Part shown: in pieces, positions 1-41,945 of the stretch
Position numbering within the stretch: position 1 is the stretch's first letter
How the letters are laid out: the number at the start of each line of letters is the position of its first letter
Source of the DNA: a virus
Direction: 5' to 3' (one strand)
Virus record (IMG/VR): IMGVR_UViG_3300022747_000235
Span: 1-52,247 of that record
DNA: 52,247 bases
Position numbers and translations under genes: made by a program
The notes under the pieces: generated by a model
The model's database searches: none
What the model saw: only the letters and a program-made list of their open reading frames with translations
What the model was told of the DNA's origin: nothing

Positions 1-99
1 ACAAGATCAACCGAATCGACGAATTGCTGCCATGGAACTGGAAACACTTCGCTAGTCAGGCCGCAGCTGCCTGAATGGCGGTCCTTATCGGGCGGTTAC
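1..99 (+). mobile_element. End of an IS66-family insertion sequence
   Basis: The leftmost 99 bases look like the transposase-distal end of an IS66-type element. They contain the transposase C-terminus and then, read outward from position 99 on the minus strand, the terminus GTAACCGCCC, which resembles IS66-family ends. Bases 100-107 would be one copy of the 8-bp target duplication that this family makes; the other copy lies outside the window. The boundary is inferred from one end only. Confidence 0.55.
3..74 (+). CDS. IS66-family transposase, C-terminal fragment
   Basis: The frame opens at the window edge and encodes 23 residues before TGA. It includes INRIDELLPWNW, which resembles the conserved C-terminal tail of IS66 TnpC transposases. 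The rest of the gene lies left of the window. The family call rests on this short motif together with the IS66-like terminus just after it. Confidence 0.6.
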   Translation, partial: KINRIDELLPWNWKHFASQAAAA

Positions 100-1365
100 A
101 GCTCTACCGTCGAGGCGCCCGGCGCTTCCGGTTGGTCCACCCCGGCCCGTGACGTCCACTCCCACCACCACCATTCCTGTCAAATGCCAGACGGCCGCCA
201 TCAAGACCCCCATATTGAAGGCAAACTCATTGGCACAGCTTTGCGCGAAGAACACGCCTTCAAGGAACATGCAGGACCCTTTGCAGAGCTGAACGACGGG
301 GCAGGACATGCACTCGGGCCGGAAGGCAAAATGCGTTGCGGTGTCGAGTGCGATGGCCTCGAAGTCCGCGACATGCCCAATCTTGTGCACGCCCTTGGCC
401 CCGGTGTTCTGACAAGTCATGACATTGCCGCGCAGATCGACGGCAATGCTATCTTCGCGATCCATCCCGCATTTCTGGCCAAGGGCCTCAATGGGCCGCC
501 GGCGCTGGATCGAGGCGTAGAATTCGTCGATGCGCGCGCCGAGGCCAAAGGCGTTCGGGTCCTCGACCAGCGCCTCGAAGATCGACCGCGTCAGGCTGTT
601 CAACTCAGCGGGCTCAAACCGCCCCGTCCCAAGCGCCGTCGCCGCATCATAGACATTCACCACGCCCTCAAGCCCCACGAAGATGTCCGGCCCGACCTTT
701 TCGGCAAACCAGGCCTTCAGCGCCCGAAGATCGTGATGGTCGCGCGTCAGCACCGCATTGAACCCGGTCTTGTCCGGTCGCTCGGCCAGCAAGGATTCAA
801 TCCAGCGCCGCTTATCCGGATCATCAAGCGGATCCGGCCCGCGCAAAGGCTGCCCCGGCCCGTCATGCGAGAGCGTGATCGCGATGTCATGCGCGGCAAT
901 GAAGTCGATCTTTTCCCGGTCAAGCAATGATCCATTCGTGATGATCGAGAAGGCCGCTTTCGGGAACCGCGCCGCCAACACCGGCACCAACCGCTTGATC
1001 TTGGCCCAGTAAAGAAACGGCTCCCCACCCCAGAGTTCGATCTTTTCCGGTGCGTCCGTGATCCAACTGTCAAGTTCAGTCAGGAAGCGCTCGACATCCG
1101 CAAGCTTCGAGACCGTGGCATCGGCGATCTGGAAGGCCTGGCTGCAATAGCTGCAGGCATAATTGCACGAGAGCCCCAGCTGGATTTTCAGGAGGCGGGG
1201 TGCGCGGGATTTGCCGAGGGGCTTGTCTTTGGCCACGCGCGGCACCGGGTCGAAGGTTCCCGGTTCGACCGGCAGCGGCAGACCCTCGCAGTCCGAGGTA
1301 TGTGGGTTGTAGCGGACGTGATGACGGCTGCCATCCCGTGCTTCCAGAGTGAGATCAAACCACAT
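85..1365 (-). CDS. Radical SAM/SPASM peptide-modifying enzyme, 3' end altered by an IS
   Basis: Radical SAM enzymes with a SPASM domain usually install radical-based crosslinks or epimerisations in ribosomally made peptides or proteins. The [4Fe-4S]-binding CxxxCxxC is at C67-C71-C74 (CNYACSYC), followed by GGEP at 113-116. The C-terminal SPASM region has cysteines at 299, 318, 352, 355, 361, 365 and 377, the spacing expected for two auxiliary clusters. The start overlaps the stop of the upstream oxygenase gene (TGATG), so translation is coupled. The last four codons and the stop come from the IS66-like end, so the native C-terminus is unknown, but every cluster ligand is upstream of that. 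The likely substrate is the Cys-tailed protein two genes upstream (inference). Confidence 0.85.
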   Translation of the reverse strand: MWFDLTLEARDGSRHHVRYNPHTSDCEGLPLPVEPGTFDPVPRVAKDKPLGKSRAPRLLKIQLGLSCNYACSYCSQAFQIADATVSKLADVERFLTELDSWITDAPEKIELWGGEPFLYWAKIKRLVPVLAARFPKAAFSIITNGSLLDREKIDFIAAHDIAITLSHDGPGQPLRGPDPLDDPDKRRWIESLLAERPDKTGFNAVLTRDHHDLRALKAWFAEKVGPDIFVGLEGVVNVYDAATALGTGRFEPAELNSLTRSIFEALVEDPNAFGLGARIDEFYASIQRRRPIEALGQKCGMDREDSIAVDLRGNVMTCQNTGAKGVHKIGHVADFEAIALDTATHFAFRPECMSCPVVQLCKGSCMFLEGVFFAQSCANEFAFNMGVLMAAVWHLTGMVVVGVDVTGRGGPTGSAGRLDGRAVTAR

Positions 1366-1991
1366 CAGTCAAAAAGCCTTTCCTCGATCGCCACGGGCAG
1401 ATTGACGCGGAAGTTCGCGACCACCTGCACATGGCGAGCACGCCCCTCATAGGGGTGCTGGTTGTGGGGAGTATGGGAGGGGAAGACCACCGAGAGCCCG
1501 GGGCGCGGATTGACCGAGAAGCCATGGCGGCTCTCAAACGGCAACCGTCCCTCATCGAAGTAGCGCGACGGATCCTCGATCACGAAGCGCGGCGTGCCGA
1601 CAGAGTTCACCGGCTGCCCCGCCCCACTGCCGGTCAGGAAGTGGACGCAGGTGAGGTCCCCCTCGCGGCTGTCCTTGTGGGTGGAGATGAAGCCACCGGG
1701 CTCGATGATGAGGGCGCGGTTTTCACAATGGTGGGGATCGAGATAGGGCGCCCAGGGACCAAGCACGGCCCGCGCACAGGCAAAGAGATGGGATTTCAGG
1801 GACTGGCCAGCCGCGGTTCTCTCAAGGATGCCCCGCACCCGCCGCTCGGCCGCCGAAAGCCGCGCGCCCCCGCTCCCCACCGCGGCGATGGCCTCGTCAG
1901 CCAGCTGCCGGTTCACCGGCCAGTCCACCGGCGTTTCAAAAAAACTGACCCGGGTCGGCCAGAGCTCCAGGCGCGTGCTGCGAACCTCCAT
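1365..1991 (-). CDS. 2OG-Fe(II) dioxygenase-like protein
   Basis: This 208-aa protein has the facial-triad pattern of 2-oxoglutarate/Fe(II) oxygenases: HxD at H105/D107 (STHKD), a distal histidine at H173 or H176 (PSHTPHNQH), and arginines at 184 and 186 that could bind 2OG. Such enzymes hydroxylate or otherwise oxidise protein or peptide side chains. I place the start at ATG 1991, two bases after the stop of the Cys-tailed gene. Longer reading frames would run back through that gene. It sits between the putative substrate and the radical SAM gene. The specific reaction is unknown. Confidence 0.75.
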   Translation of the reverse strand: MEVRSTRLELWPTRVSFFETPVDWPVNRQLADEAIAAVGSGGARLSAAERRVRGILERTAAGQSLKSHLFACARAVLGPWAPYLDPHHCENRALIIEPGGFISTHKDSREGDLTCVHFLTGSGAGQPVNSVGTPRFVIEDPSRYFDEGRLPFESRHGFSVNPRPGLSVVFPSHTPHNQHPYEGRARHVQVVANFRVNLPVAIEERLFD

Positions 1992-1993
1992 TT

Positions 1994-2308
1994 TCAGCAC
2001 CGGCAGGCGCAGTTGCAGTTGAAGCTCTTGCGGTTGGCGGTGATCGTGACGGTGGCCCCAGTCCCGCCGCCCGACAGGCTTTCGATATAGCAATTGTAGG
2101 TTGTGGTGCCGCCAAACCCGCTGTTAACGCCGCCAGACCCGTAAACCGCCCCCGTCGCAACTCCCGTAGCGCCAGAACTCGGCACCCCATTGACCAAAGC
2201 CACTTCGCTGACATCCCCGGTGCCGATGACCGGCTTGTTGGCGATACGCGCCCAATCCACAAAGCCCGTGTCATCGATCACGATGGTGGTTCCAACCTTA
2301 TAGGCCAT
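1994..2308 (-). CDS. Gly-rich 104-aa protein with a Cys-x-Cys-x-Cys-x-Cys tail, candidate modification substrate
   Basis: The ATG at 2308 has a strong AAGGAGG ribosome-binding site. The N-terminal half (MAYKVGTTIVIDDTG...) resembles short phage tail-fibre adaptor sequences. Residues 43-85 are rich in Gly, Ser and Thr. The protein ends in SFNCNCACRC, with cysteines at 98, 100, 102 and 104, the last being the final residue; C73 is the only other cysteine. A core-like Cys tail lying directly beside a SPASM enzyme and two 2OG oxygenases is the layout of a ribosomally synthesised, modified peptide. It could instead be a fibre tip whose C-terminus is modified or binds metal. No family is recognised. 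Confidence 0.75.
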   Translation of the reverse strand: MAYKVGTTIVIDDTGFVDWARIANKPVIGTGDVSEVALVNGVPSSGATGVATGAVYGSGGVNSGFGGTTTYNCYIESLSGGGTGATVTITANRKSFNCNCACRC

Positions 2309-3038
2309 GGCCGCCTCCTTGTGCCTGATGGGCCAGGATCTCGGCGAGCCCGGCCTTGCAATGGGAATTCGGAAGGGTGAGCGAACAGAGGACCGGAATG
2401 CACATCCGCTCCTCCCCCGCGAAGAACGTGCTGTCGTGGGGAAGATGCCCCTCGAAGACGAGCATGGACCCCGCCTTGGGCTCGACCGCATACCAACCGC
2501 CAGTGTAGGCGTCCGGGTTGCGACAGGGCCAAAGCCGCTTGCCGACATTGGCCGGATCATAAAACCGCACCGCCCCGCGATGAAGCGAGGTGTCCGGACA
2601 ATCGGCATCCAGCACCACCCGCGGGTAATAGGTGCAGACGATATCGCTCTGGATATGGGTGTGGGTGTTGATCCCTACGTTCTCGTACAACGCCCGGCGC
2701 TGCCAGAACGTATCCGACATCATGGCGATCTCGCCGGTATGGTCATAGCCATAGGCCAGCTGCAGATATTCCCGCACGCCGGCGGCCACCATTTGCGCCA
2801 GTACCGCGAGGGCCGGGTCCTGCCGGTCCATCAGGAAGTTATGCCGCAGATGCCCGAGATGATTGGTCGTATCGCCCACATTGCGGCCATTCCCCGCATG
2901 CTGGATGCGATGGGCCTCGGCATCCTCAGCCGCCAGCGCGTAAAGGCGGTCATTGAAGCCCGCGGGCATCTGCCAGTGCTTGTGCAGCACGAAGCTTGGA
3001 TAGATCACTTGGAACTCACTCGTGGTCGGAATTTCCAT
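2298..3038 (-). CDS. Putative 2OG-Fe(II) oxygenase (TIGR02466/PF13759-like)
   Basis: The 246-aa product has the HxH...H pattern of this phage-associated oxygenase family: H126 and H128 (NTHTHIQ), H201 (GHLPHDST) and R211. Between them lie GAVRFYDPA and GSMLVFEGHLPH, the double-stranded beta-helix strands expected of the fold. Its architecture is unlike that of the second oxygenase, so the two are not recent duplicates. The start overlaps the upstream stop by one base, and its own end overlaps the start of the Cys-tailed gene by 11 bases. A role in modifying tail proteins or the Cys-tailed substrate is inferred from position. Confidence 0.75.
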   Translation of the reverse strand: MEIPTTSEFQVIYPSFVLHKHWQMPAGFNDRLYALAAEDAEAHRIQHAGNGRNVGDTTNHLGHLRHNFLMDRQDPALAVLAQMVAAGVREYLQLAYGYDHTGEIAMMSDTFWQRRALYENVGINTHTHIQSDIVCTYYPRVVLDADCPDTSLHRGAVRFYDPANVGKRLWPCRNPDAYTGGWYAVEPKAGSMLVFEGHLPHDSTFFAGEERMCIPVLCSLTLPNSHCKAGLAEILAHQAQGGGHGL

Positions 3039-3940
3039 CAGGTGACCTCCAGCACGATCTTGCCGATCGCAGTGTAATGCTCGGTGTTGAGTTTGACGGT
3101 GATGCGGTCGCCGGGGGCGAGCCCCGAGGCCTCGATGGCAAAGCTGCCGGTGCCGTCAGCAGAAGTGAGGAGGCGGCGTTTTGGCAGATAGCCCGCGTCG
3201 CTTTCCAGTTTCAGCGCGATGGCATGGGCAAAGGCGGAGCCGTCCGCGTTCCATCTGAGCGCGACCGGCACATCCACTCGCCCACCGGCTGGCACGGTGG
3301 CCGCCTCTGGGCCCAAGGCGTGGAAGTAGAACTGCTTGTACCAGAGCCCGTCCTTCGGGATCGTCGCATCGTCAATTTCGCCTGCCTGCACTGTGCCGTT
3401 CAGCAGGATCGGCGGGATCTGACAGAGAACCTCGATCCGGGCCTGATCGAAGGGCACCACCACCGGCAGAAAGACGACGAGCGCGTTCGAGATGCCTTCG
3501 CGTGCCCGGTACCGGAACGAGGTGGCGATCTTCTCCCGCGCAGATCGTGCAAAGCGGTTCCGCCAAGAGAGCGGTCGCCCGTCGGAGCAGACAGCCATGT
3601 CGATCAGGGCATGATCGACCAACTCGTCATGTCCGCGCATGCCACCGGCAACGAGGCAGGAGCGGCCCTTGTAAATCGCCCCCATCGGCGCGCCGGGAAG
3701 ATCCGGAACAAAGCATTCGTTATGAACGAGGTCGACAAAACCGGCCTGATTGCCAAAGGCCGGCCGCGCCTCGAGATGCGCCAAGAGATCGGCCCAGAGC
3801 ATGACCCCGCCCATGCCAGTTGCCGTGCCGGGTGCTGCGAACTCGAAGACGGCTATCGAGACATAGTCTGGTTTGACATCGACCGCGTAATGGCGCGGCA
3901 CGCCGCAATTGGTGATGGCATAAAGTCCGGTCTCGATCAT
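3038..3940 (-). CDS. Phage tail-module protein of unknown function
   Basis: This 300-aa protein is not recognised by family. The N-terminal half is globular and mixed. Residues from about 215 to the end are strand-rich with Gly/Asp turns (SFAIEASGLAPGDRITVKLN), as in an Ig-like or carbohydrate-binding beta-sandwich. ATGA overlap with the upstream S74 fibre gene and TGATG with the downstream oxygenase gene place it in the same transcript. It may be a fibre-associated structural protein. Confidence 0.6.
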   Translation of the reverse strand: MIETGLYAITNCGVPRHYAVDVKPDYVSIAVFEFAAPGTATGMGGVMLWADLLAHLEARPAFGNQAGFVDLVHNECFVPDLPGAPMGAIYKGRSCLVAGGMRGHDELVDHALIDMAVCSDGRPLSWRNRFARSAREKIATSFRYRAREGISNALVVFLPVVVPFDQARIEVLCQIPPILLNGTVQAGEIDDATIPKDGLWYKQFYFHALGPEAATVPAGGRVDVPVALRWNADGSAFAHAIALKLESDAGYLPKRRLLTSADGTGSFAIEASGLAPGDRITVKLNTEHYTAIGKIVLEVT

Positions 3941-4530
3941 GGGGTGGTCCTTTTCAGCTGATCGACCTCTTGGGCGAGGTCCTTGATGGCCTCGACAAGA
4001 AGGCCGATGAGATTGCCGTAGGCGAGGCGCAGCACGCCTTCGGCTTCGACCACGGCCTCCGGCGCGACCGCCTGCACGTCCTGCGCGATGAGGCCCATCT
4101 GCCGTACATCGCTGCCCGCCATGGTAAAGGTGACGCCGGTCAGCGCCTGCACCTTGGCCAGCGCATCCGGGATCGGGGCGATGTCGGATTTGAGCCGCGC
4201 GTCGGACGAAGAGACGAAGTTCGGCGCCGTGACCGTGCCAGTGAATGTCGCCCCAGCGAGCTGCGCAAAGGCGCTGGCCTGGGCCCCATCAAGCAGATCG
4301 GCATCGAGACCCGAGCCAGGCCCATCCTGCGCCATCACCTTGGCGAAGAGTTCGGCATCGGTCATGCCACCAGCCGTGACATCGACGATGCTCTCGACGC
4401 CGCTCGTGCTTTTCTTGAGATAGAGCTTTCCGTCTGTCACGTTGACCGCAAGCTCGCCGAGGACAAGGTCCGCAAGCACCGGCGCGCGCCCTGCGACCGC
4501 GCTGCGCTTCAAAAGCAAAGTATTGGCCAT
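3937..4530 (-). CDS. Tail-fibre protein with C-terminal S74 intramolecular chaperone domain
   Basis: The N-terminus (MANTLLLKRSAVAG) is the tail-attachment segment also seen in the neighbouring 546-aa fibre. The C-terminal part has the peptidase_S74 signature SSSDARLKSDI, then GLIAQDVQ and AYGNLIGLLVEAIKDL, with a final coiled coil. S74 domains trimerise fibres and cleave themselves off at the Ser preceding the DxR motif. A paralogue at 8812-9471 shares the segment TGVVTAPNF/TGTVTAPNF-SSSDARLKS. Confidence 0.85.
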   Translation of the reverse strand: MANTLLLKRSAVAGRAPVLADLVLGELAVNVTDGKLYLKKSTSGVESIVDVTAGGMTDAELFAKVMAQDGPGSGLDADLLDGAQASAFAQLAGATFTGTVTAPNFVSSSDARLKSDIAPIPDALAKVQALTGVTFTMAGSDVRQMGLIAQDVQAVAPEAVVEAEGVLRLAYGNLIGLLVEAIKDLAQEVDQLKRTTP

Positions 4531-4532
4531 GG

Positions 4533-6173
4533 TCAGAACGTCCCACCGTCGAGCGCCACGCCATTGATGGTGCCGCCGGTAATGCTGACGGATGCCGCCG
4601 ATTGCGTGGCAAGGGAGCCGAGCCCCAGGGTGGCGCGGGCGGTTGCCGCATCGGCATCATCGAGAAGCGTGCGGGCAAATGCCGTCAGCGCTGTGAGTGC
4701 CGCGGTGGCGGCCCCGCTGTAATAGGCGATCTGATCGGCCGCCGGGGTCAGCCCCCCAACACTGGCCAGTGCCGCGGCGAGGCTGAGGGTCGGGTTGCCT
4801 GCCACCGCATCGCCATTCGAGACAGAAAGCCCGGTGCCGGTCACCGCGATCGTCCGCGCCGCCACCGTCGCAGCGGCCGTCCGGACCACAAGCCCGTTGG
4901 TCGCCAAATTGTGCAGCGCCAGCGCCTGTCCAGTAAGCCCAACGGTATCTGCCGCCACGGCAATGCCGGTGCCTGCGCCCACATCCAGCGTGTTGCCGGA
5001 TTTGGCGAGGCCCGCCCCGGCCAGGATCTGCCCCGCCCCGGTGAACTGTACAAAGGTCACACCCGTGGTGCCGAGCGTCCCGCCCGGATCGACCGTGGCG
5101 AGATAGCCCATGTCGGCATTGACCGTGCCGCTTTCGACAAAGACGTAAGCCGAGACCAGTTTGGCCCAGGTGTCGGCATCAGAAGATCGAGCCCAGGCCC
5201 CAGCCGCTACGACATAGAGGCCGTTTTGACTTGCGGTCGACTGATCCTTCACCAGCACCCGATCGCCTGCGACGAGCGCCACGCCATCAAGCGTCATCGC
5301 ACCGGACAAGGCAGCGATATTAGCCGTACTGGCTGCCCGCACCGATTGCTTTGGCTCGAGCCCCTGGACCGTGAGGTCGACATAGGCTTTAGTCACTGCA
5401 TCCTGCGCACCCTGAGGATCACCAAGCCCTGTCAGGCGAAAGCCGCCGAGGGCGATATCCGCCGCGGGGGCTGCCAGCTGGTCAAGCCGGGTCGACCTCA
5501 CGAAGGCGGTCGTGGCGATCTGCGTCGTGTTCGTGCCGTTCGCAGGCGTCGGCGCCGTCGGCGTGCCTGTCAGCGCGGGAGAGGCGAGCGGCGCACGCGA
5601 GGTATCCGTTGGATGAATGTGATCGGCGCGGGCAAAGCGTGTGCCTGTACCGATTGAAGCCGTGCCGTCCATCGCAGGCGCAGTCGCACCAGCTTGGCCG
5701 AGCACAAAGGCGGTCGTCGCGATCTGGGTGCTGTTGGTGTCGGTTGTCGCCGTAGGTGCCGTGGGCGTGCCGGTGAGACCAGGGGACGCCAGCGGCGCCT
5801 TTGCATCAAGGGCGCCCTGCAGCCCTGTCACGTCGCTGAGCCCATGGAAATGGGCGAGCGCGGCCTTCGTGGCCAACCCTGCATCTACTTGGGATTTGCG
5901 CACGAGGTCGGTTGCCGCGCTGGCGTCCTCGGAGGATTTTGGGACGGTGACAAAGGTCTTTGCCCCCGCGATGCTTTGAGAAGCCGCGAGATCGACAAAG
6001 GCGCCTTTGCCCGCAAGCGGGATGACCGAGGTCGCATTGCCCGCCCCATCATCGCCCTTGCCGACATAAAGCGTGTCATCAACCTCGTTATGGGCAATCT
6101 CGCCAGATTTAAGCGCAGCCGGTGCGCCGGCTACGCCCGAGACGCGGCGTTTGAGTTGGATCGTATTGGCCAT
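4533..6173 (-). CDS. Tail-fibre protein with PLASPxLTGTPTAPT repeats
   Basis: The 546-aa product begins MANTIQLKRRVSG and carries two copies of the phage-fibre repeat PLASPxLTGTPTAPT...NxTQIATTAFV, followed by DAVTKAYVD segments and a long Ala/Gly/Thr-rich beta-helical stretch. These are hallmarks of tail-fibre shafts. The two-base gap to the S74 gene suggests that the shaft and its chaperone-bearing partner are made together. Confidence 0.85.
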   Translation of the reverse strand: MANTIQLKRRVSGVAGAPAALKSGEIAHNEVDDTLYVGKGDDGAGNATSVIPLAGKGAFVDLAASQSIAGAKTFVTVPKSSEDASAATDLVRKSQVDAGLATKAALAHFHGLSDVTGLQGALDAKAPLASPGLTGTPTAPTATTDTNSTQIATTAFVLGQAGATAPAMDGTASIGTGTRFARADHIHPTDTSRAPLASPALTGTPTAPTPANGTNTTQIATTAFVRSTRLDQLAAPAADIALGGFRLTGLGDPQGAQDAVTKAYVDLTVQGLEPKQSVRAASTANIAALSGAMTLDGVALVAGDRVLVKDQSTASQNGLYVVAAGAWARSSDADTWAKLVSAYVFVESGTVNADMGYLATVDPGGTLGTTGVTFVQFTGAGQILAGAGLAKSGNTLDVGAGTGIAVAADTVGLTGQALALHNLATNGLVVRTAAATVAARTIAVTGTGLSVSNGDAVAGNPTLSLAAALASVGGLTPAADQIAYYSGAATAALTALTAFARTLLDDADAATARATLGLGSLATQSAASVSITGGTINGVALDGGTF

Positions 6174-34667: not shown

Positions 34668-34831
34668 AATGGTTGAAACCTTCGATGTTGTGTGATCTGC
34701 TATTCGGGACAACGCTCGAGCAACAGGAACAAGCCAGCCAAAGTGGTATGTTTCATTCGGTCCCTGGAAGAACTGGAAGCCCCAATTCCCTCAGAAACGA
34801 GTTGTGGCTCGAGGTTGCTGCCCGGATTTGA
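34664..34831 (+). pseudogene. Possible truncated third gene of the MBL-membrane operon
   Basis: An ATG at 34664 overlaps the membrane-protein stop (ATGA). The 55-codon frame MKWLKPSMLCDLLFGTTLEQ... runs into the 3' end of hsdM on the other strand from 34753 on. The first ~30 codons could be the start of a third gene cut off by insertion of the restriction operon. It may equally be chance. Confidence 0.3.
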
Positions 34832-36393
34832 TCTTCGATTGTGATCAATTTCTGCTGCGTTGCACCTAGATCGATTTCAGCTTCGGCAACAGCGTTGGTG
34901 ATGTATCGGGAGATGTTAAGATTGAAGCCCTCCTCAGCGATGCGCTCCATGGTCACGCGCTTCGAGTAGCGCTCCTCTTCCTTGCGGAACTGGTACGTCT
35001 CGATGATCTTCTGAATGTCGTTCGGCTTGCCATCTAACCCTTCGCGCAGGCGATTCTGCCGTTTGCCTTTTTCATAGTGCTCGGCCGCGTTGATGAAGAG
35101 CACATCATCCGGCTTCTTGCACTTCTTCAGCACGAGGATGCACACCGGGATGCCAGTCGAATAGAAGAGGTTCGCGGGTAGGCCGATGACCGTGTCAATA
35201 TGACCATCCTTCAGCAGCTTTGTACGGATGCGCTCCTCAGCCCCACCCCGGAACAGCACGCCGTGCGGCAGAATGATGGCCATTACGCCCTCATCCTTCA
35301 AGTAGTGGAAACCGTGAAGTAGGAAGGCGAAGTCTGCGGCGGATTTGGGCGCCAGCCCATGGTTTTTGAACCGTACGTCGTCGCCCATCGCTTCAGTCGG
35401 CTCCCAACGGAGGCTGAAGGGCGGGTTGGCCACGATCGCGTCAAACGAGGGTTTCTTGGCAGGGTTTAGCTCTCGCAGGATGTCCCAGTCATTGTTCAGC
35501 GTGTCGCCATGGTAGATATCGAATTCCGTATCTTTCACGCCGTGCAGCAGCATGTTCATGCGAGCGAGGTTATAGGTGGTGATGTTCTTTTCTTGCCCGT
35601 AGATCTTCCCGATGCCGTGCGGTCCCAAGCACTTTCGCACGTTCAACAACAGCGAGCCGGAGCCACACGCGAAGTCGAGCACACTGGAGAGGCGCTCCTT
35701 CTTTCCGGTTGCGGGCTCCTGGCTGTCCAACGTCACGATCGCGGAAAGGATGTCAGACACCTGTTGCGGGGTATAGAACTCGCCTGCCTTCTTTCCGGAA
35801 CCGGCGGCAAACTGGCCGATCAGATATTCGTAAGCGTCGCCCAGCGCGTCGACATCGGATGAAAAATCGGCGAGCCCATTGGCAATCTCGGTGATGATGG
35901 CGCAGAGCTTGGCGTTGCGCTCAACGTAGGTCCGGCCAAGCTTTTCAGAGCCAAGATTGATTTCCGAAAAAAGGCCCCCGAACGTGCTCTGGAAGGACTC
36001 GTTCTCGATATATTTGAAGCCTGCCTGCAGCGTGTTCAGCAGATCGTCGCTCTGGGTGCGCGCCATGTGGGCGATGCTGGTCCAGATGTGTTCCGGCTTG
36101 ATGACGTAATGCGCCTTGAGGCGCATCTGCTTTTCAAAAGCTGAAACATCGTCAGGGTTTTGCGCGTACCACACGGAAAGCGGCGAGCGCCCGCTATTGC
36201 CGATCGTGTTGGGATCCGGGTAGTCGCGCCCGAGCTCCTTCCGGGCGGCCATCTCGTAATTGTCCGAGAGATAACGCAAAAATAGGAAGGACAGCATGTA
36301 ATCGCGGAAATCGCCCGCGTTCATCGCTCCGCGCAGCGTGTCGGCGATGTTCCAGAGCGTCTTGCCCAGTTGCTTTTGGATTTGGTCGTTCAT
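34753..36393 (-). CDS. hsdM: Type I restriction-modification system methyltransferase subunit
   Basis: The 546-aa product has N-terminal HsdM helices (LWNIADTLRGAMNAGDFRDY), GEFYTP at 204-209, SAM-binding motif I DFACGSG (240-246) and motif IV NPPF (323-326), all expected of an N6-adenine type I methylase. It is last in the operon, after a PrrC-like gene whose stop it overlaps by four bases (ATGA). Confidence 0.9.
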   Translation of the reverse strand: MNDQIQKQLGKTLWNIADTLRGAMNAGDFRDYMLSFLFLRYLSDNYEMAARKELGRDYPDPNTIGNSGRSPLSVWYAQNPDDVSAFEKQMRLKAHYVIKPEHIWTSIAHMARTQSDDLLNTLQAGFKYIENESFQSTFGGLFSEINLGSEKLGRTYVERNAKLCAIITEIANGLADFSSDVDALGDAYEYLIGQFAAGSGKKAGEFYTPQQVSDILSAIVTLDSQEPATGKKERLSSVLDFACGSGSLLLNVRKCLGPHGIGKIYGQEKNITTYNLARMNMLLHGVKDTEFDIYHGDTLNNDWDILRELNPAKKPSFDAIVANPPFSLRWEPTEAMGDDVRFKNHGLAPKSAADFAFLLHGFHYLKDEGVMAIILPHGVLFRGGAEERIRTKLLKDGHIDTVIGLPANLFYSTGIPVCILVLKKCKKPDDVLFINAAEHYEKGKRQNRLREGLDGKPNDIQKIIETYQFRKEEERYSKRVTMERIAEEGFNLNISRYITNAVAEAEIDLGATQQKLITIEDQIRAATSSHNSFLRELGLPVLPGTE

Positions 36394-37619
36394 TGTGCTG
36401 GTGCTTCCTGGGGGACGGGCGCAGGCGCCGGGGCGGGATGCGGGGCCGGAGCGGCGCCCGGCAGGTGAAACTCGAACCGCGTGAGGAACTCGCGCAGGAT
36501 GCGGCGGAAAAGCTCCGTGTTGTCCTCGCCCATTTCGGTCGGCTCATGGATGGCGTAGGCGCCGTGGCTCAACAAGTTCAGGGCTCGGTTGAACAGCGCC
36601 CGGTCTTCATCGTTGTCCAGCGCTTTCAGGCAAAAGGCGATGCTCGGGTGCCCGAAGAAAGACGCTGTCTTCTCCATAACACTGCGCAAGGCATTGAAGT
36701 GGAAGGTGTAGAGCTTCCCCTTCTTCGGATCCGCCGCACGCTGCAATTCGGCGAGCGTCGCCACATGATGAAAGAAGGGCGTGTCTTCCGTCGCCTGAAG
36801 CGTGTAGGTCCCGTCGCCACTTGGCCGGTGCAGGAAATAGCGGCGATGGTCGACCGAAGGCGCGTCATCGATTTTCCGACCGACTTCGTTGCACATGACG
36901 TTGAAGAACAGCGCATGGTGCGAAGAGAAGATCACCTTGATCGGGGCAGGCTTGCCCTCGGCGTCTTTCCGTGTGGCCGCCCGACGGAGGAGCTTGGCTA
37001 GGTCGCAGGCGACGGAAATCGCGTTGTTGTCGTCCAGCGACGAGATCGGATCGTCGATATAGAGATACTTCTTCCCCTGATAGGATGCATGCCCATCCAG
37101 CATCCGTTCGCAGATGGCCATGAAAATGCACCAGATGAAGATATTCTGTTCGCCCCGCGACACCTTGATGTTGGCCTCGCCGCCCTTGTGGAAGCTGACG
37201 AAATCCGGCTTGGAGATGGTATCCTTGCCCTGCTGAACCTCCTTGTAGGTGAAGTCGAACTCGAAGTCGGCGTAACGGGAAAGGTAGCGGGCGATGGTTT
37301 CGTCCAGCGCGAGTTCCGTCATCGCGTTGAAGAAGGACGACTTCTCGTTCAGTTGCAGGCGGCGCACGCTGTCGCCTTCAAGGTCGTTCTCCCAGACGAA
37401 TAGATCCTCGGTGAAGGCGTTGAAGTACAGCGTGTCGGGTGTGCCGGTCGGGTTCTTCTTGTTCTTGCGCTTGCCTGCGTCCTTGAACTCCATTGAAAGG
37501 CGGGTCTTGCCGGTGCGGTTATAGGCATAGATCAAGACCAGCGACGCTGCCCCGGTCGGGTTGTTCAGATCGTCACGCAGCCGCGCCACTAGAGTCTTCA
37601 GGTTCTTGTAGGTGCTCAT
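36390..37619 (-). CDS. PrrC-like anticodon nuclease (ABC-type ATPase fused to ACNase)
   Basis: The 409-aa protein (E. coli PrrC: 396 aa) has an ABC-type ATPase core: P-loop YAYNRTGKTRLS (31-42), signature SRGEQN (154-159), Walker B LYIDDPISSLDD (186-197) and H-loop FSSHHAL (231-237). The C-terminal part has R312-x3-E316 (RSVMEKTASFF) and H352 (LLSHGAYA), matching the R320/E324/H356 catalytic triad of PrrC. PrrC is held silent by a type I restriction enzyme and cleaves tRNA-Lys when the enzyme is inhibited. The gene sits between hsdS and hsdM with 4-base overlaps to both. Confidence 0.75.
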   Translation of the reverse strand: MSTYKNLKTLVARLRDDLNNPTGAASLVLIYAYNRTGKTRLSMEFKDAGKRKNKKNPTGTPDTLYFNAFTEDLFVWENDLEGDSVRRLQLNEKSSFFNAMTELALDETIARYLSRYADFEFDFTYKEVQQGKDTISKPDFVSFHKGGEANIKVSRGEQNIFIWCIFMAICERMLDGHASYQGKKYLYIDDPISSLDDNNAISVACDLAKLLRRAATRKDAEGKPAPIKVIFSSHHALFFNVMCNEVGRKIDDAPSVDHRRYFLHRPSGDGTYTLQATEDTPFFHHVATLAELQRAADPKKGKLYTFHFNALRSVMEKTASFFGHPSIAFCLKALDNDEDRALFNRALNLLSHGAYAIHEPTEMGEDNTELFRRILREFLTRFEFHLPGAAPAPHPAPAPAPVPQEAPAQ

Positions 37620-38932
37620 GCGTCATCCTCCCCGACTTGGGGGAAAAGCTGCTGCATCAGCCCCTTCTTGTGGGTCTTGAAGGTTTCGAGTTTTCCGGTC
37701 TCGGCGGCGATGAGGTCGTCGAGGGAGGTGAGGCAGTCAGCGATGCGCTGCTGTTCGGGGCGAGACGGTGCCATGACCACGAGTTCCAAGACGCTTGGCT
37801 TGGAAATGTTTTTCATCGAGCCGGAACTACCGCCTGCAAGACCAGATAGCGCTGCTCGCCCCTTTTCTGAGCCCAGAAGGAGCGCAACAAAACGCATGTC
37901 GGCTCCGGGTCTAGGTTTGGCAGCCCATAGACGATCAGGAAGAAACAAGTTTGGATAGTCGTCCTTTACATATGCGTTAGCTCCCACAAGAACTGGCGTA
38001 TTCATGCGGCTAATGATCACTGTATCTGCGCGGACCGGCTCTTTCACGCGCTCAATTTCTTCCTCTTCAAACACAACTTTGTTCTCAAGTGGATCGAAAA
38101 CTCCATTTGTGACAGCGCTTGTCTTTAAGACACCAATCTCATCACTCATCGCGGGCCGATCACCCGAATTGACGCTCACACCAGCATCAAGCGCGCTTAC
38201 CAACTTAGAAAGTGGAATTTCCGCCCACTCCCCCGCTCCCTCGAACTCGGGGAAGCGGAGGCGGGGTTGGGTTTCGCCTTCCTGGGGGAAAAGTTGCTGC
38301 ATCAGGCCCTTCTTGTGGGCCTTCAACGCCTCCACCTTCCGCCCCTGCGCGGCAATCAGTGCGTCCGCCGAGTCCAGAAAATCGGCGATCTTCTGTTGTT
38401 CGGGGGGGCTCGGAAGTAAGACTCTTAGCTTTAAAAAGTCGGTCTTGCTCATCACGCGGTTTCTGCCCGCACCACCTGGCGAGATCAAACCCAGCTTGTA
38501 GACAAACTGCTTGTCGACGATCTTGAACTTGAAGAACTCCGGCAAAGCCCGACCATTAGAAAAAGTGTAGGTCGGGAAGCGATGCGACACCAAAGCTCCA
38601 TCATCGGAGCTGCCTGCAATTGCTATTGCGCCTTCCCAGGCGAAGGTAATGTTCACAATTAAATCTTCGCGCTTAACCTCAAAGAGTACATCCATGGCGT
38701 TTTTCGCCGGATCTTCCTGTTCCTTTAGGAAAGTTCCTTTGCCATGACTGCGCAATCCAAGGCCTGTGTAAATCTCGCTCGGCTTCGTTCTGTTGCGCAT
38801 TACGGGCGTTAGAAAGCTGGCGAGTGACATCTCTTGCCACTCGCCAGCATCGCGAAACTCCGGAAAACGGTGCTTGGGCATCAAAGCCGAGCCAGCGACC
38901 GATTTGACAGATGAATTCTTCTTACTGCTCAT
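37616..38932 (-). CDS. hsdS: Type I restriction system specificity subunit
   Basis: The 438-aa product has two target-recognition domains, each followed by the conserved spacer helix (PPEQQKIADFLDSADALIAAQ and RPEQQRIADCLTSLDDLIAAE) and KGLMQQLFPQ. The two repeats and linkers give a bipartite recognition sequence that cannot be predicted here. It overlaps hsdR by 11 bases and the PrrC-like gene by four. Confidence 0.9.
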   Translation of the reverse strand: MSSKKNSSVKSVAGSALMPKHRFPEFRDAGEWQEMSLASFLTPVMRNRTKPSEIYTGLGLRSHGKGTFLKEQEDPAKNAMDVLFEVKREDLIVNITFAWEGAIAIAGSSDDGALVSHRFPTYTFSNGRALPEFFKFKIVDKQFVYKLGLISPGGAGRNRVMSKTDFLKLRVLLPSPPEQQKIADFLDSADALIAAQGRKVEALKAHKKGLMQQLFPQEGETQPRLRFPEFEGAGEWAEIPLSKLVSALDAGVSVNSGDRPAMSDEIGVLKTSAVTNGVFDPLENKVVFEEEEIERVKEPVRADTVIISRMNTPVLVGANAYVKDDYPNLFLPDRLWAAKPRPGADMRFVALLLGSEKGRAALSGLAGGSSGSMKNISKPSVLELVVMAPSRPEQQRIADCLTSLDDLIAAETGKLETFKTHKKGLMQQLFPQVGEDDA

Positions 38933-41900
38933 AGGCGCTCAGCCCCGAAATCTCGCGCCCACCGGCGCGCTTGAGCAGCAACGGCATCAGGTCGGCCATC
39001 AGGTCCAGTTCCTTCACCCGCCGTGCTTTCCAGTTTAGACTGAGGGGTTCCATCAGATCGGTCAGCGCCTCGCCGTCAAAGATCATGCGTTGCAGGATGG
39101 TGTCGACAAAGCCTTGTAGCGCCTCGATCGCCAGCCCGTGCTTGCCTGCGATGCCCGCCAGTTCCACCGCGTTCTTTTCCGCCTTGAAGCGGCTATAGCC
39201 CTCGCGGATGGCCTTTTCGCTGAGGCCCTCGCCCGCCATGAGGGTATTGATGTAGGCCGCGATATCCTCGCGCTCGTCCATGAACTTGGCGTCAGACTGA
39301 ATCAGGCCGATCAGCTGTTCGCGGTTCATCTTCTGTTTGTCGGGGCTCGCCTCGGAATAGCGGGCGATCAGACCCATTATGTAGTCATAATCGATGACGG
39401 CCGAGGCGAAGAGGATGAATTCGAAATCCAGTTGGTCGGCGTCTTGGCTGGGCTTATCCGCGGCCGTGCCTTGCTGGGCCCTAAGGCGCTGAGCGGTTTC
39501 CAGATAGGCGCCGCGGAAGCCAAGCAGGTTGTCGCGTGGCAGAACCTGTTCGATGCTATTGCGGTTTTCGTCGGTCAGGTCGGTGTACTGGTCAAGCTGG
39601 GTCTTGAGCCGCTGGACCTCTTTGAAGTGTTCAATGAACGCCGCACGGGCCGCGTCGCCCTTGAGGTTGGGAACCGCTTCCGGGACGAATTCGAGGCCTT
39701 GCGATTTCATGAAGGTATCGAGCTTCTGGACCGCGGTATCCAGTTTCTGGATGACCACGGGGGCCTTGTCGACCAGCCAGATTTCACGGGCCTTTTCGGC
39801 GGCGGCTTCGCCTGAGAACAGCGCGATGGCGGCATCGACCGCGCCCTGCTGCTGGCGGAAGTCAAGGATATTGCCATAGGGCTTGGTGGCGTTCAGCACC
39901 CGGTTCGTGCGCGAGAAGGCCTGGATCAGCCCGTGATGCTTGAGGTTCTTGTCGACGTAGAGGGTGTTCAGGAACTTGGAGTCAAAGCCTGTCAGCAGCA
40001 TGTCGACGACAATCGTGATGTCGATCTTGTGGTGCGGCTGGTTGGGGTAAGCCTTGCGAAGGTCGGCATCCGGCCATTGCTGATCCTTGATGCGTTTCTG
40101 CACGTCTTGGTAGTACAGGTCAAATTCGCCGATCTTGTGGTTGGTGCCGTACTGGGCGTTGTAGTCAGCGAGGATGGCCCTCAGGGCCTCCTTCTTCTTT
40201 TCCGGTTCAACCGCGTTGTCTTCCTTCTCCTGCGGCAGGTCTTCCTGAATTTGCTTCACATCAGGATCGCCCTCGGCGGGCGGGGAGAAGACGCATGCGA
40301 TGTTCAGCGGCTGGAAGCTGGGATCCGTTGCCAGCTTTTCGGCCTGGATCGTTTTGAAGAGGTTGTGATACTCGATGGCGTCATTGATCGACGAGGTGGC
40401 GAGCAAGGCGTCGAAACGGCGCTGACCAGTGGCCGCGTCGTGTTTCGCGAGGATCGCATCGATAACCGCCCGCTTGGCCAGCGGTTCGCCCGGCTTCGGC
40501 AGGCTTTTGCCTTGGGGCTTGAAATAGTCGACATGAAACCTGAGGACGTTTCCGTCCTCGATGGCGTGTGTGATCGTGTAAGTGTGAAGGCGCTGCTGGA
40601 AGAGGTCTTCCGTCGTCTTCATGCTGGCCTGAGTGTCTTCGATCTTCTGCTGCGCGGCGTTCTGATCGAAGATGGGCGTCCCAGTGAAGCCGAAGAGCTG
40701 GGCGCGCGGGAAGAACTCCTTGATGGCCTTGTGGTTCTCGCCGAATTGCGAACGATGGCACTCGTCGAAGATGAAGGCGATGCGCTTTTCGCGTAGGGGT
40801 TCCAGCTGCTCTTTGAAGCTCTTCTTGCCGTCCTTCTTCTGCTGCTTGTTGCGTTTGCTGTTCTCGTCCAGCGCGAGGCCAAGCTTCTGGATCGTGCAGA
40901 CGATGACCTTGTCGGCATAATCGTCCGACAAAAGGCGCCGAACTAGAGACGCCGTGTTGGTATTCTCCTCGACGCAGCCTTCCTGGAACTTGTTGAACTC
41001 CTCGCGCGTCTGGCGATCGAGGTCCTTGCGATCCACGACGAAGAGGCATTTCTCGATGTCGGGATTGTCCTTCAAGAGCGTTGACGCCTTGAAGGAGGTG
41101 AGCGTCTTGCCGCTGCCTGTCGTGTGCCAAATGTAGCCGTTGCCACAGTCCTGGGCAATGGAGTCGATAATCGCCTTCACCGCGTAGACCTGATACGGCC
41201 GCATCATCAGCAGTTTCTGCTCGCTCGCGACCAGAACCATGTACCGGCTGATCGTCTGGCCGAGGGTGCACTTGACAAGGAATGTTTCGGCGAAGCTGTC
41301 GAGATGGACGATCTTCTTGTTGTCGACGTCCGCAAACTCATAGGCTGGGAGAAATCGCTCTTCGGCATTGAAGGCGAAATGGCGCGCATTGTTGTTCGCG
41401 AAGTAAAAGGTCCGATCGCGGTTGCTGACGATGAAGAGCTGAAGGAAGCACAGGATGGTCTTCGTATAGCCGTTCCCAGGGTCGTTCTTGTAATCGACGA
41501 TCTGCTCCATGGCACGACGAGGGCTTATGCCGAGGGTCTTCAGCTCGATCTGTACAACCGGAACACCATTGATCAGGAGAATGACGTCATAGCGGTGGTG
41601 ACTGTTGTCTGTGTTGATACGAAGCTGGTTGATCACCTCGAAGGAATTCTTGCACCAGTCCTTGATGTTCACGAGCGTGTAGTTCAGCGGCGTGCCGTCA
41701 TCGCGGGTGAAGCTGTTTCGCTCGCGCAGGGTCCGTGCAGCCGTGAAAACATCTGGCGTGACAATTTCATCGTGCAGCCGCTGAAACTCTCCATCGGTGA
41801 GCTTGACGCGATTCAGGGCTTCGAACTTCTTCCTAAAGTTATCCTCCAAGGCGACGCGATCTCGGATGTCGGGTCGATACTCGTACTTGAGGTCCTCTAG

Positions 41901-41945
41901 CTTCGCGACAAAGGCTTCTTCAATATCGCGCTCGGCATGGCTCAT
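38922..41945 (-). CDS. hsdR: Type I restriction system endonuclease/translocase subunit
   Basis: The 1007-aa product (EcoR124-like size) starts with MSHAERDIEEAFVAKLEDLKYEYRPD and the nuclease core RYDVILLINGVPVVQIELK. The translocase motifs follow: Walker A TTGSGKT, DECHRSQFGE, GFTGTPIF, and DMLLTGFDSKFLNTLY. It is the first gene of the hsdR-hsdS-prrC-hsdM operon. A 7-bp inverted repeat lies 70 bases upstream. Confidence 0.9.
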   Translation of the reverse strand: MSHAERDIEEAFVAKLEDLKYEYRPDIRDRVALEDNFRKKFEALNRVKLTDGEFQRLHDEIVTPDVFTAARTLRERNSFTRDDGTPLNYTLVNIKDWCKNSFEVINQLRINTDNSHHRYDVILLINGVPVVQIELKTLGISPRRAMEQIVDYKNDPGNGYTKTILCFLQLFIVSNRDRTFYFANNNARHFAFNAEERFLPAYEFADVDNKKIVHLDSFAETFLVKCTLGQTISRYMVLVASEQKLLMMRPYQVYAVKAIIDSIAQDCGNGYIWHTTGSGKTLTSFKASTLLKDNPDIEKCLFVVDRKDLDRQTREEFNKFQEGCVEENTNTASLVRRLLSDDYADKVIVCTIQKLGLALDENSKRNKQQKKDGKKSFKEQLEPLREKRIAFIFDECHRSQFGENHKAIKEFFPRAQLFGFTGTPIFDQNAAQQKIEDTQASMKTTEDLFQQRLHTYTITHAIEDGNVLRFHVDYFKPQGKSLPKPGEPLAKRAVIDAILAKHDAATGQRRFDALLATSSINDAIEYHNLFKTIQAEKLATDPSFQPLNIACVFSPPAEGDPDVKQIQEDLPQEKEDNAVEPEKKKEALRAILADYNAQYGTNHKIGEFDLYYQDVQKRIKDQQWPDADLRKAYPNQPHHKIDITIVVDMLLTGFDSKFLNTLYVDKNLKHHGLIQAFSRTNRVLNATKPYGNILDFRQQQGAVDAAIALFSGEAAAEKAREIWLVDKAPVVIQKLDTAVQKLDTFMKSQGLEFVPEAVPNLKGDAARAAFIEHFKEVQRLKTQLDQYTDLTDENRNSIEQVLPRDNLLGFRGAYLETAQRLRAQQGTAADKPSQDADQLDFEFILFASAVIDYDYIMGLIARYSEASPDKQKMNREQLIGLIQSDAKFMDEREDIAAYINTLMAGEGLSEKAIREGYSRFKAEKNAVELAGIAGKHGLAIEALQGFVDTILQRMIFDGEALTDLMEPLSLNWKARRVKELDLMADLMPLLLKRAGGREISGLSAYEQ

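Follow-up and report, generated by a model that had tools for sequence, protein, structure and literature searches.

We found that a radical SAM/SPASM enzyme is paired, in many bacterial viruses, with a tail-fibre-type protein carrying a run of alternating cysteines, a pairing that is strongly supported. Since the enzyme gene adjoins such a protein in so many viruses, the association suggests that these viruses chemically modify their own tail tips. The locus described here lies in the window, a 52,247-nt stretch of viral DNA (IMG/VR record IMGVR_UViG_3300022747_000235), and we regard it, with moderate confidence, as a phage-borne, RiPP-like maturation system whose substrate is the virion tail-fibre tip. 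Direct support comes from gene content, conservation, two-way co-occurrence, the tail-fibre scaffolds of the clear cases and the predicted fold of the enzyme. Our partial survey of the open-access literature (PMC) found no description of a radical SAM enzyme paired with a Cys-run tail protein.

A five-gene locus in a tail-fibre operon

As the first-pass annotation had described, positions 85-3940 of the window hold five overlapping or abutting genes of a tail-fibre operon; all are on the minus strand. From upstream to downstream, these code for BETA (3038..3940, 300 aa), a companion protein with a C-terminal Ig-like domain; OX1 (2298..3038, 246 aa), a 2OG-Fe(II) oxygenase-like protein with matches to PF13759, PHROG 81 and, below the cut-off, TIGR02466; CYS (1994..2308, 104 aa), a tail-type protein with a C-terminal alternating cysteine run, which we propose as the substrate; OX2 (1365..1991, 208 aa), a further 2OG-Fe(II) oxygenase-like protein with an HxD...H motif, assigned from PF13759, PHROG 81, its alignment and its start codon; and the radical SAM/SPASM enzyme of the PHROG 1802 family (85..1365, 426 aa), the proposed maturase. 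The run, NCNCACRC (1997..2020, minus strand), forms the extreme C-terminus of CYS. Directly upstream of BETA on the same strand is a tail protein with an S74 intramolecular chaperone domain (3937..4530; Peptidase_S74, 6.6e-16; tail PHROGs), and upstream of it in the same operon is a tail fibre protein (4533..6173, minus strand, 546 aa; tail-fibre PHROG, 5.5e-41). Overlaps of 4, 1, 11 and 1 bases join the S74 gene to BETA, BETA to OX1, OX1 to CYS and OX2 to the enzyme gene, respectively, and 2 bases separate CYS from OX2, for which the ATG at 1991 is the most likely start rather than that of a longer TTG-initiated ORF. The locus is uncut in 26 close viral relatives, and each of them retains all five genes.

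The CYS protein belongs to no family in Pfam, PHROGs, NCBIfam or PADLOC at the thresholds used, and tblastn against 50,697 phage records gave no match. Its cysteine run stands above chance, because shuffles nearly never reproduce it and because the C-terminal end is well conserved: when the 104-aa protein was shuffled 200,000 times, 28 shuffles had a run somewhere and none had one at the extreme end, and across 31 distinct window-type CYS proteins identity averages 80% over the last 10 residues, versus 46% for the middle. Both ends of these proteins are conserved and the middle is variable. Throughout the runs, 85% of the residues that separate the cysteines are Asn, Ala or Asp.

The enzyme and the cysteine run co-occur in both directions

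We compared the loci of 121 distinct relatives of the enzyme. In 86 of 110, a CxCxCxC run is encoded on the same strand no more than 3 kb upstream, versus 2/110 on the opposite strand, 0/92 downstream and an average of 0.25/110 in residue-shuffled versions of the same ORFs. The motif was defined on the first locus set only, and two further sets, fetched afterwards and counted apart, show the run upstream in 25 of 30 and 38 of 53 loci. Starting instead from the Cys motif, the enzyme is present in 52 of 68 Cys-tail loci versus 3 of 291 other pattern loci, a comparison in which the Cys-tail rule was written after the raw reverse-scan list was known and one of the 68 “tail” rows (L404) is a large protein with an internal motif; in the raw scan, 101 of 173 in-frame places were without the enzyme. 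The same scan, run in two codon versions, also caught a family of small Cys proteins at 38 loci, none of which has the enzyme, and large proteins in which NCNCGCPCSC is internal. Relatives of the enzyme are encoded on at least 560 viral stretches. Loci of this kind also occur in prophages of cultured marine strains (L130, L134); such strains include Nereida ignava and Thalassobacter stenotrophicus.

The strict run is absent within 5 kb in 24 of 106 distinct loci: seven of these have a weaker Cys-rich end, four are phage loci with a run 5-8 kb upstream, five are of the YcaO type and eight are unexplained or cut. The last two classes, together 13 of the 106 distinct loci, have no run that we could find. 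They would suit a reading in which the run is not the substrate, the enzyme and oxygenases acting instead on a nucleotide, a second virion protein or a sugar of the host surface and only sharing the operon with Cys-rich fibre tips. Unrelated genes can indeed gather in fibre operons, and residues 66-168 of the enzyme weakly resemble viperin. Against this, the viperin score is 53.5 bits against a cut-off of 180, the SPASM region is typical of peptide-modifying enzymes, and the pairing persists on one strand and one side across visibly differing scaffolds; we consider such other targets very unlikely. The Cys run is, in our judgement, quite probably the substrate of the enzyme. The first-pass annotation had proposed that a tail-associated protein has its Cys tail modified by the SPASM protein and the oxygenases together and should co-occur with them across phages. 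For the SPASM protein and the Cys tail the co-occurrence holds in both directions and far beyond close relatives; the oxygenases, detected in just 39 of 98 distant loci, fall outside the core.

The run lies on several kinds of scaffold

We identified 100 run-bearing ORFs in 91 of the 121 loci. In 85 of them no more than 25 aa lie between the end of the run and the C-terminus; in 15 the run is followed by a Hint-like domain, a label that in these counts rests on a permissive text pattern. The shortest ORF has 55 aa, the longest 726 aa and CYS of the window 104 aa; RiPP precursor peptides are short, at about 120 aa or less. The run is found on differing scaffolds, including full T7-type collagen-like tail fibres: five of ten run-bearing proteins tried match tail-fibre PHROGs and one more has an S74 fibre end, while the remaining four, short Cys proteins, showed no virion role by library match, nor did CYS of the window in PHROGs. 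The Achromobacter phages JWF and 2-1, both isolated, encode a tail fibre with the run and a Hint domain, then one gene, then the enzyme; in JWF the fibre reads NCNCDCNCNCS ahead of its Hint domain. It seems quite probable to us that the modified product is a part of the virion.

For the domains that follow the run, Pfam supports a Hint-clan assignment at an E-value of 0.0076 or better in seven of eight run-bearing Hint-like proteins tried, of which two exceed the curated cut-off (L036, Vint, 28.2 vs 27; JWF, Hom_end_hint, 47.5 vs 32.1) and five lie below it (L033, L039, L042, L050 and L068); L040 had no match. In these relatives, the window itself having no Hint domain, the matches begin at a Cys that follows the run. 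The Hint label, assigned by the same permissive text pattern, switches about 10 times on a 118-enzyme tree. In some other relatives, long runs of the (KC)n type directly precede an S74 domain. The released peptide that had been entertained as an alternative product looks less likely: processing domains, where present, lie after the run, so that such a domain would excise itself and leave the run on the fibre.

The same fibre ends could be read as metal-binding tips: the alternating cysteines would face inward in a trimeric beta needle and coordinate metal ions or Fe-S units arranged in a line, with the radical SAM enzyme preparing or protecting the site rather than cross-linking it. An i, i+2 alternation is typical of residues that point inward in a fibre strand, and is the pattern expected of such a needle, which the long (KC)n-type runs directly before the S74 domain would also fit. 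Its counterpart in T4 gp37 would be the HxH iron needle, with His in place of Cys; the excerpts consulted of PMC11705849 describe HxH iron sites in gp37 and further tail fibres, and those of PMC7291167 mention spikes stabilised by iron. However, cysteines need no SPASM enzyme to bind metal, yet the pairing is frequent and one-sided, and we regard a metal tip as rather improbable.

The radical SAM/SPASM enzyme and its likely chemistry

The enzyme is recovered above the cut-off by the Pfam Radical_SAM model (38.3 bits vs 29.5; 1.9e-09), passes that of the SPASM domain model TIGR04085 (31.6 bits vs 27) and matches PHROG 1802 at 5.6e-51. Its SAM-cluster motif, CxxxCxxC, lies at residues 67/71/74. 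The seven-Cys SPASM motif has the form CX9-15GX4C...CX2CX5CX3C...C, and the spacing in the enzyme is C299-X13-G313-X4-C318, C352/C355/C361/C365 and C377. Among 23 divergent relatives, C67, C71 and all seven SPASM cysteines (299/318/352/355/361/365/377) are invariant and C74 is conserved in 22, bearing out the earlier observation of a full set of cluster cysteines, nine of the ten being invariant. The AlphaFold2 model (mean pLDDT 88.4; below 50 at residues 408-426) has as its closest solved fold that of CteB, a thioether-forming enzyme (Z 23.6 over 357 residues, with a model span of 1-398 that includes the N-terminus).

We tentatively take the chemistry to be thioether formation, an assignment in which our confidence is limited. 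Homology does not settle it, because TigE tops the PDB sequence-profile ranking (3.1e-21, ahead of the anaerobic sulfatase-maturating enzyme, anSME, at 2.7e-16 and CteB at 4.1e-15) and because the structural Z scores of CteB, ChlB and anSME differ by no more than 2.4. A different SPASM reaction at this tail, namely conversion of Cys to formylglycine, epimerisation or formation of C-C bonds, leading to an aldehyde-bearing or D/L-alternating tip, is consistent with the two best profile matches, with the structural matches to anSME (Z 21.2) and the epimerase EpeE (Z 14.0) and with the annotation of the JWF enzyme as an anaerobic sulfatase-maturating enzyme. Weighing against it are the higher Z of CteB, which spans more of the model, and the low score against the NCBIfam anSME model (TIGR03942, 35.3 bits vs a cut-off of 349.45), and we view it as unlikely, if less so than a metal tip. 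The enzyme also lies below the NCBIfam cut-offs of the named thioether maturases (TIGR03974, 34.1 vs 425; NF047865, 62.2 vs 340; TIGR04064, 63.6 vs 518.7) and far under that of every peptide-maturase model among the matches listed (25 NCBIfam families).

Several specific identities of the enzyme were rejected: viperin or another defence protein (the score given above, together with a PADLOC pVip match limited to residues 66-168), the anaerobic sulfatase maturase, retained as a rival for the chemistry only, and the queuosine enzyme QueE (a PHROG 2076 match of just 0.01).

The oxygenases and BETA are optional parts

OX1 scores above the PF13759 cut-off (27.7 bits vs 27) and OX2 below it (16.7 bits), and both match PHROG 81 (3.1e-08 and 6.4e-05, respectively). 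The two align with each other across the His-x-Asp/His and distal His region, with HKD...H in OX2 and HTH...H in OX1; the iron triad of 2OG-Fe(II) oxygenases of the PF13759 type is HxD/E...H. The earlier description of two unrelated oxygenases does not hold, given these shared matches and this alignment, and the proposed likeness of OX1 to TIGR02466 is retained only as a weak match (6.8e-07; 29.3 bits vs a cut-off of 62.5). PDB sequence searches with either protein returned nothing useful.

BETA has no family in Pfam, PHROGs or NCBIfam. In its AlphaFold2 model (mean pLDDT 88.8), residues 205-300 match intimin, invasin and the phage Chi neck protein at Z of about 10, and the N-terminal 200 residues have no solved structure among the matches listed, which is not evidence of a new fold. 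The whole model retrieves mostly antibody-like Ig domains in Foldseek, and its full-length matches in BFVD are uncharacterised phage proteins. Relatives of BETA were detected in 38 of the 98 distant loci, a redundant set in which, as for the oxygenases, distant neighbours may be missed because the families rest on blastp clustering. The oxygenases and the Ig-like BETA are optional parts outside the core.

Proposed mechanism and significance

We posit that the SPASM enzyme would recognise a tail-fibre-type protein bearing a C-terminal alternating Cys run and modify this run while the tail is being assembled or earlier. Thioether links, joining the cysteines to carbon atoms of adjacent residues, would be the most likely modification, and such cross-links would lock the distal tip as a rigid, resistant strand. 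Among the relatives, the run could become the mature C-terminus by three routes: a stop codon, a self-cleaving Hint-like domain or a self-cleaving S74 chaperone domain. In the lineage of the window, the two 2OG-type oxygenases probably hydroxylate, and BETA probably caps or presents the tip. More broadly, we are inclined, on balance, to think that tailed phages of many bacterial groups build covalently cross-linked fibre tips made by a radical enzyme, with a general module of SPASM enzyme and alternating-Cys C-terminus grafted repeatedly onto differing fibres, exposed by a stop codon or by Hint or S74 self-cleavage and, in some lineages, hydroxylated by 2OG-type oxygenases.

If so, unusual amino-acid chemistry would be built into the virus particle at the point where it touches the host, as a widespread and overlooked layer of phage tail biology. 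PHROG 1802 and the orphan Cys-tailed proteins would gain a function, the module would point to stable protein tips of a new class, and a dependence of host range or particle stability on post-translational chemistry would become testable. As far as our partial survey of the open-access literature extends, this would be the first case known of radical SAM chemistry maturing a structural protein of the virion.

Comparison with known systems

Six apparently cellular enzymes form a branch of their own (support 1.0), and five of them lie beside YcaO and ATP-grasp proteins. This branch, found in Ramlibacter, Variovorax and a gammaproteobacterial MAG, has the RiPP-type setting of YcaO/nitroreductase-type clusters, from which the other 116 of the 121 loci differ in having no relative of its YcaO. 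JWF and 2-1 encode enzymes of the same family as that of the window (PHROG 1802, “radical SAM domain-containing protein”; 38.6% and 39.2% identity), with a CxCxC-bearing Hint tail fibre two genes upstream; relatives of the oxygenases and BETA were not detected there by blastp clustering. Their records annotate these genes without linking them.

S74 chaperones and Hint (hedgehog/intein) domains are known as self-cleaving C-terminal domains, and in some relatives they follow the Cys run; in the part of the open-access literature surveyed we found no description of their use to expose such a tip next to a SPASM enzyme. The T4 gp37 needle likewise has alternating metal-type residues in a fibre tip region, but these are His rather than Cys, and the excerpts consulted of PMC11705849 mention no maturation enzyme.

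The closest parallels are the thioether-forming SPASM maturases, namely CteB with SCIFF, the ranthipeptide enzyme PapB and the sactipeptide enzymes SkfB and that of RumC, which share the fold and the cluster-Cys pattern and whose genes likewise adjoin one for a ribosomal Cys-rich protein, here a putative substrate. The residues linked in RumC include Asn, Ala, Arg and Lys (excerpts of PMC6779426), types that also occur between the run cysteines here. Unlike those systems, the present one lies in a phage tail operon, and its candidate substrates are tail-fibre-type proteins, 55-726 aa long, in which the run stands at the C-terminus or before a Hint-like domain.

A Radical SAM/SPASM Gene at the End of a Tail-Fiber Operon

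The window, a virus record of 52,247 bases from IMG/VR, carries terminase, portal, S49 protease and capsid E genes, which make up a head module of the lambda type, along with a tape measure gene and type I restriction genes. The latter are carried by the phage at 34753–41945: HsdM (34753–36393) and HsdR (38922–41945) flank two ORFs (36390–37619 and 37616–38932). A tail-fiber operon lies on the minus strand at the left end, and its last five genes, all on that strand, code for an Ig-like-domain protein (BETA; 3038–3940), a 2OG-Fe(II) oxygenase-like protein (OX1; 2298–3038), a 104-aa Cys-tailed protein (CYS; 1994–2308), a second oxygenase-like protein (OX2; 1365–1991) and a radical SAM enzyme (85–1365). 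Adjacent genes of this set share 1 to 11 bases, except for CYS and OX2, which are 2 bases apart. Immediately upstream come genes for a tail protein with an S74 domain and for a tail fiber. By eye, the shared phage DNA stops just before or at the stop codon of the enzyme gene (window 1–130 and 23 close-relative loci: L002–L024 in part, L126–L137), and the flank beyond it varies between groups of these loci; hence, the prophage end, a probable attachment junction, seems to be at the 3′ end of the enzyme gene.

The enzyme scores above the cut-offs of Pfam Radical_SAM (38.3 bits against 29.5) and of the SPASM domain TIGR04085 (31.6 bits against 27), and it matches PHROG 1802 at 5.6e-51. Alignment of 23 relatives shows no change at the seven SPASM cysteines or at two of the SAM-cluster cysteines; the third SAM-cluster cysteine is absent from one relative (L026). 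This bears out the first-pass annotation of a SPASM protein with its cluster cysteines. Among the 25 listed families, no peptide-maturase model was reached, the enzyme falling far under each cut-off. Its AlphaFold2 model is confident (mean pLDDT 88.4) and has as its best solved fold CteB (Z 23.6, rmsd 4.0 over 357 residues, model 1–398), a thioether-forming SCIFF maturase, followed by ChlB (Z 22.4), an anaerobic sulfatase maturase (21.2) and TigE (18.8). Sequence profiles instead rank the solved matches as TigE, then the sulfatase maturase, then CteB. By these family and fold matches it is a SPASM enzyme of the peptide-modifying type, with homology leaving the reaction unfixed. SPASM chemistry other than thioether formation is a rival to the reaction favored below.

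All five genes are present in 26 of the 71 loci of the first viral scan (L002–L025, L066, L071); in the close locus L072, the enzyme is represented by a 3′ fragment alone, next to other sequence, and there is no CYS, OX or BETA match. The 31 distinct Cys proteins of the window type, drawn from the window and from viral and genome loci, have a mean identity of 82% in the first 30 residues, 46% in the middle and 80% in the last 10. Over the final 16 residues, both Cys codons (TGC 116, TGT 17) and Asn codons (AAC 81, AAT 29) vary, so it is the amino acids, not merely the DNA, that are conserved at this end.

The Enzyme and an Alternating-Cysteine Run Occur Together

In most other loci, a sequence relative of the window CYS was undetected, and a different protein with an alternating Cys run is instead encoded upstream of the enzyme. 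We pooled 202 loci from three sets, excluding two Achromobacter records and L001, and kept a single locus for each group of enzymes at 90% identity, leaving 121. A run was defined as four or more cysteines at every second residue, or NCNCNC. The first-pass annotation had proposed co-occurrence of the SPASM enzyme with the Cys-tailed protein and the oxygenases as a check, and for the enzyme and the run it holds: of the 110 loci with 3 kb of upstream sequence, 86 have a run there in an ORF on the enzyme strand, against 2/110 on the opposite strand and 0/92 within 3 kb downstream on either strand. By set, the upstream counts are 23/27 (first viral set, on which the motif was defined), 25/30 (later viral) and 38/53 (genome). 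At 5 kb, the counts are 82/106 upstream on the enzyme strand, 2/106 on the opposite strand and 1/85 on each strand downstream. With the residues of these upstream ORFs shuffled, a run occurs in a mean of 0.25/110 loci (maximum 2; 20 trials). An unlikely rival reading is that the enzyme gene is unrelated and keeps company with the run by chance.

The 24 loci missed at 5 kb include seven with a weaker Cys-rich end (L198, L201, L194, L062, L052, L077, L187), four phage loci with a run 5–8 kb upstream (L083, L085, L094, L056), five YcaO-type loci (L141, L142, L145, L146, L157) and eight others (L144, L203, L089, L199, L138, L159, L183, L072), among which L072 is a fragment, L138 has an enzyme match only from residue 73 and L144 belongs to the YcaO-type branch. 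Two viral contigs carry two enzyme genes apiece (L027/L091; L028/L089), with a Cys-run gene found in the fetched locus of just one gene of each pair. In L084, L086 and L116, by contrast, a lone enzyme gene has three separate Cys-run proteins upstream of it or at it, of which one is Hint-like and two are short.

The pairing was also approached from the motif, with three fixed DNA patterns able to encode NCNCxCxC or CACDC scanned over the viral collection (at least 359 loci). Among the matches listed for two of the patterns (the first and second), 72/173 in-frame Cys places have the enzyme in their fetched locus, versus 1/105 out-of-frame ones. Under a rule set after the raw list was inspected, which counts as a Cys tail any run close to the C-terminus or followed by a Hint or S74 domain, the enzyme accompanies 52/68 tail loci versus 3/291 non-tail loci (L243, L264, L282), again among the matches listed, so co-occurrence is also seen from the Cys side. 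L243 is a tail missed by the rule, and L282 shares its contig with L120. Downstream sequence is shorter than 2.5 kb in fourteen of the 16 enzyme-less tail loci, and in one of these fourteen (L404) the motif is internal to a large protein and not a true tail; of the other two, L295 and L459, the latter looks like a chance ORF. These sets partly overlap the earlier loci, and the scan is a cross-check whose count is incompletely independent.

Two other protein types matched the patterns, in each case with the SPASM enzyme absent from the fetched loci: a short, Cys-rich phage protein of the MSKCKNCNCxCHC type (38 loci among the matches listed, e.g., L334, L338, L347), probably an unrelated metal-binding protein, and large phage ORFs of 653–1585 aa in which VYQxSG is followed, internally, by a stretch of the NCNCGCPCSC type (L343, L358, L371, L392, L404, L406).

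The Run Sits at the End of Tail Fibers in the Clear Cases

Within 5 kb upstream, 100 ORFs from 91/121 loci carry a run, the last run ending at most 25 residues from the C-terminus in 85. In the other 15, a Hint-like domain (hedgehog/intein-type, self-cleaving; found by a permissive text pattern) follows the run, leaving no ORF in any other class. Pfam places two of eight Hint-type proteins above the curated cut-off (L036 and phage JWF) and five below, with no match for L040. The Hint label switches about 10 times across a tree of 118 enzymes, so the domain seems to have been repeatedly gained and lost. The runs 6–7 kb upstream in L083 and L085 are long and of the (KC)n type, with S74-type sequence immediately after (S74 checked for L083); such repeat tail proteins, in L083, L085, L087 and L094, have the longest Cys runs seen.

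Run-bearing scaffolds comprise T7-type collagen-like tail fibers (622 and 726 aa), the JWF fiber (annotated as T4 gp36-like) and short proteins. Among 10 searched against PHROGs, five match tail-fiber families, L083 does so additionally via its S74 end, and the four short proteins match none. By these scaffold and family matches, the run forms the distal end of fibers in the clear cases; the window CYS may have the same role because of its tail-fiber operon.

The isolated Achromobacter phages JWF and 2-1 have the order fiber with run and Hint, one gene of about 240 aa, enzyme. Close enzyme relatives (79–90% identity) occur, among others, in Thalassovita, Marivita, Nereida and Thalassobacter genomes, and further ones in Burkholderiales, Rhodospirillales and additional groups. 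Some hosts carry several copies of the locus: three in Thalassobacter stenotrophicus (L134, L135, L137) and two in Thalassobius vesicularis (L133, L136). Six apparently cellular enzymes form a single branch (support 1.0, midpoint-rooted tree), and in five of the six, a YcaO and an ATP-grasp protein adjoin the enzyme. These five YcaO-type loci, from Ramlibacter, Variovorax and a gammaproteobacterial MAG (L141 with a nitroreductase domain too), look like RiPP-type clusters, which places the enzyme family next to ribosomal-peptide chemistry.

Accessory Genes and a Proposed Tail-Tip Modification

Of 98 distant loci, 39 have a detected oxygenase relative and 38 a detected BETA relative, with 21 having both and 42 neither; the oxygenases and BETA are add-ons. 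OX2 had been described as unrelated to OX1, a claim that falls, as both belong to one broad group. The C-terminal Ig-like domain of BETA resembles intimin, invasin and a neck protein of phage Chi (Z about 10), and the 200-residue domain before it has no solved match among those listed.

Beyond the genes, motif, two-way pairing, run position, scaffolds and predicted fold established here, we posit a virion tail tip that would be matured in a RiPP-like way. The run is likely the enzyme's substrate and, with slightly less assurance, probably remains in the virion. Cysteine dominates the motif, and the residue between cysteines is Asn in 50%, Ala in 21% and Asp in 13% of 513 CxC triplets. Such a tip might alternatively bind metal, much as the HxH iron needle described in PMC11705849 does. 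Thioether formation is the favored chemistry, at a little under even chances, because the top structural match, CteB, forms thioethers, because of the Cys dominance and because Asn, Ala, Arg and Lys are among the linked residues named for RumC (PMC6779426). Hydroxylation by OX1 and OX2 is a somewhat weaker possibility, and presentation or capping of the tip by BETA is rather doubtful.

Among the papers listed from the open-access literature searched (preprints and most subscription papers lying outside it), none describes a phage virion protein as the target of a radical SAM enzyme, or the pair of enzyme and Cys-run gene. The RiPP-like principle, a SPASM enzyme with a Cys-rich ribosomal substrate, is already known; if the virion role is confirmed, viruses would gain a kind of system that is new for them.
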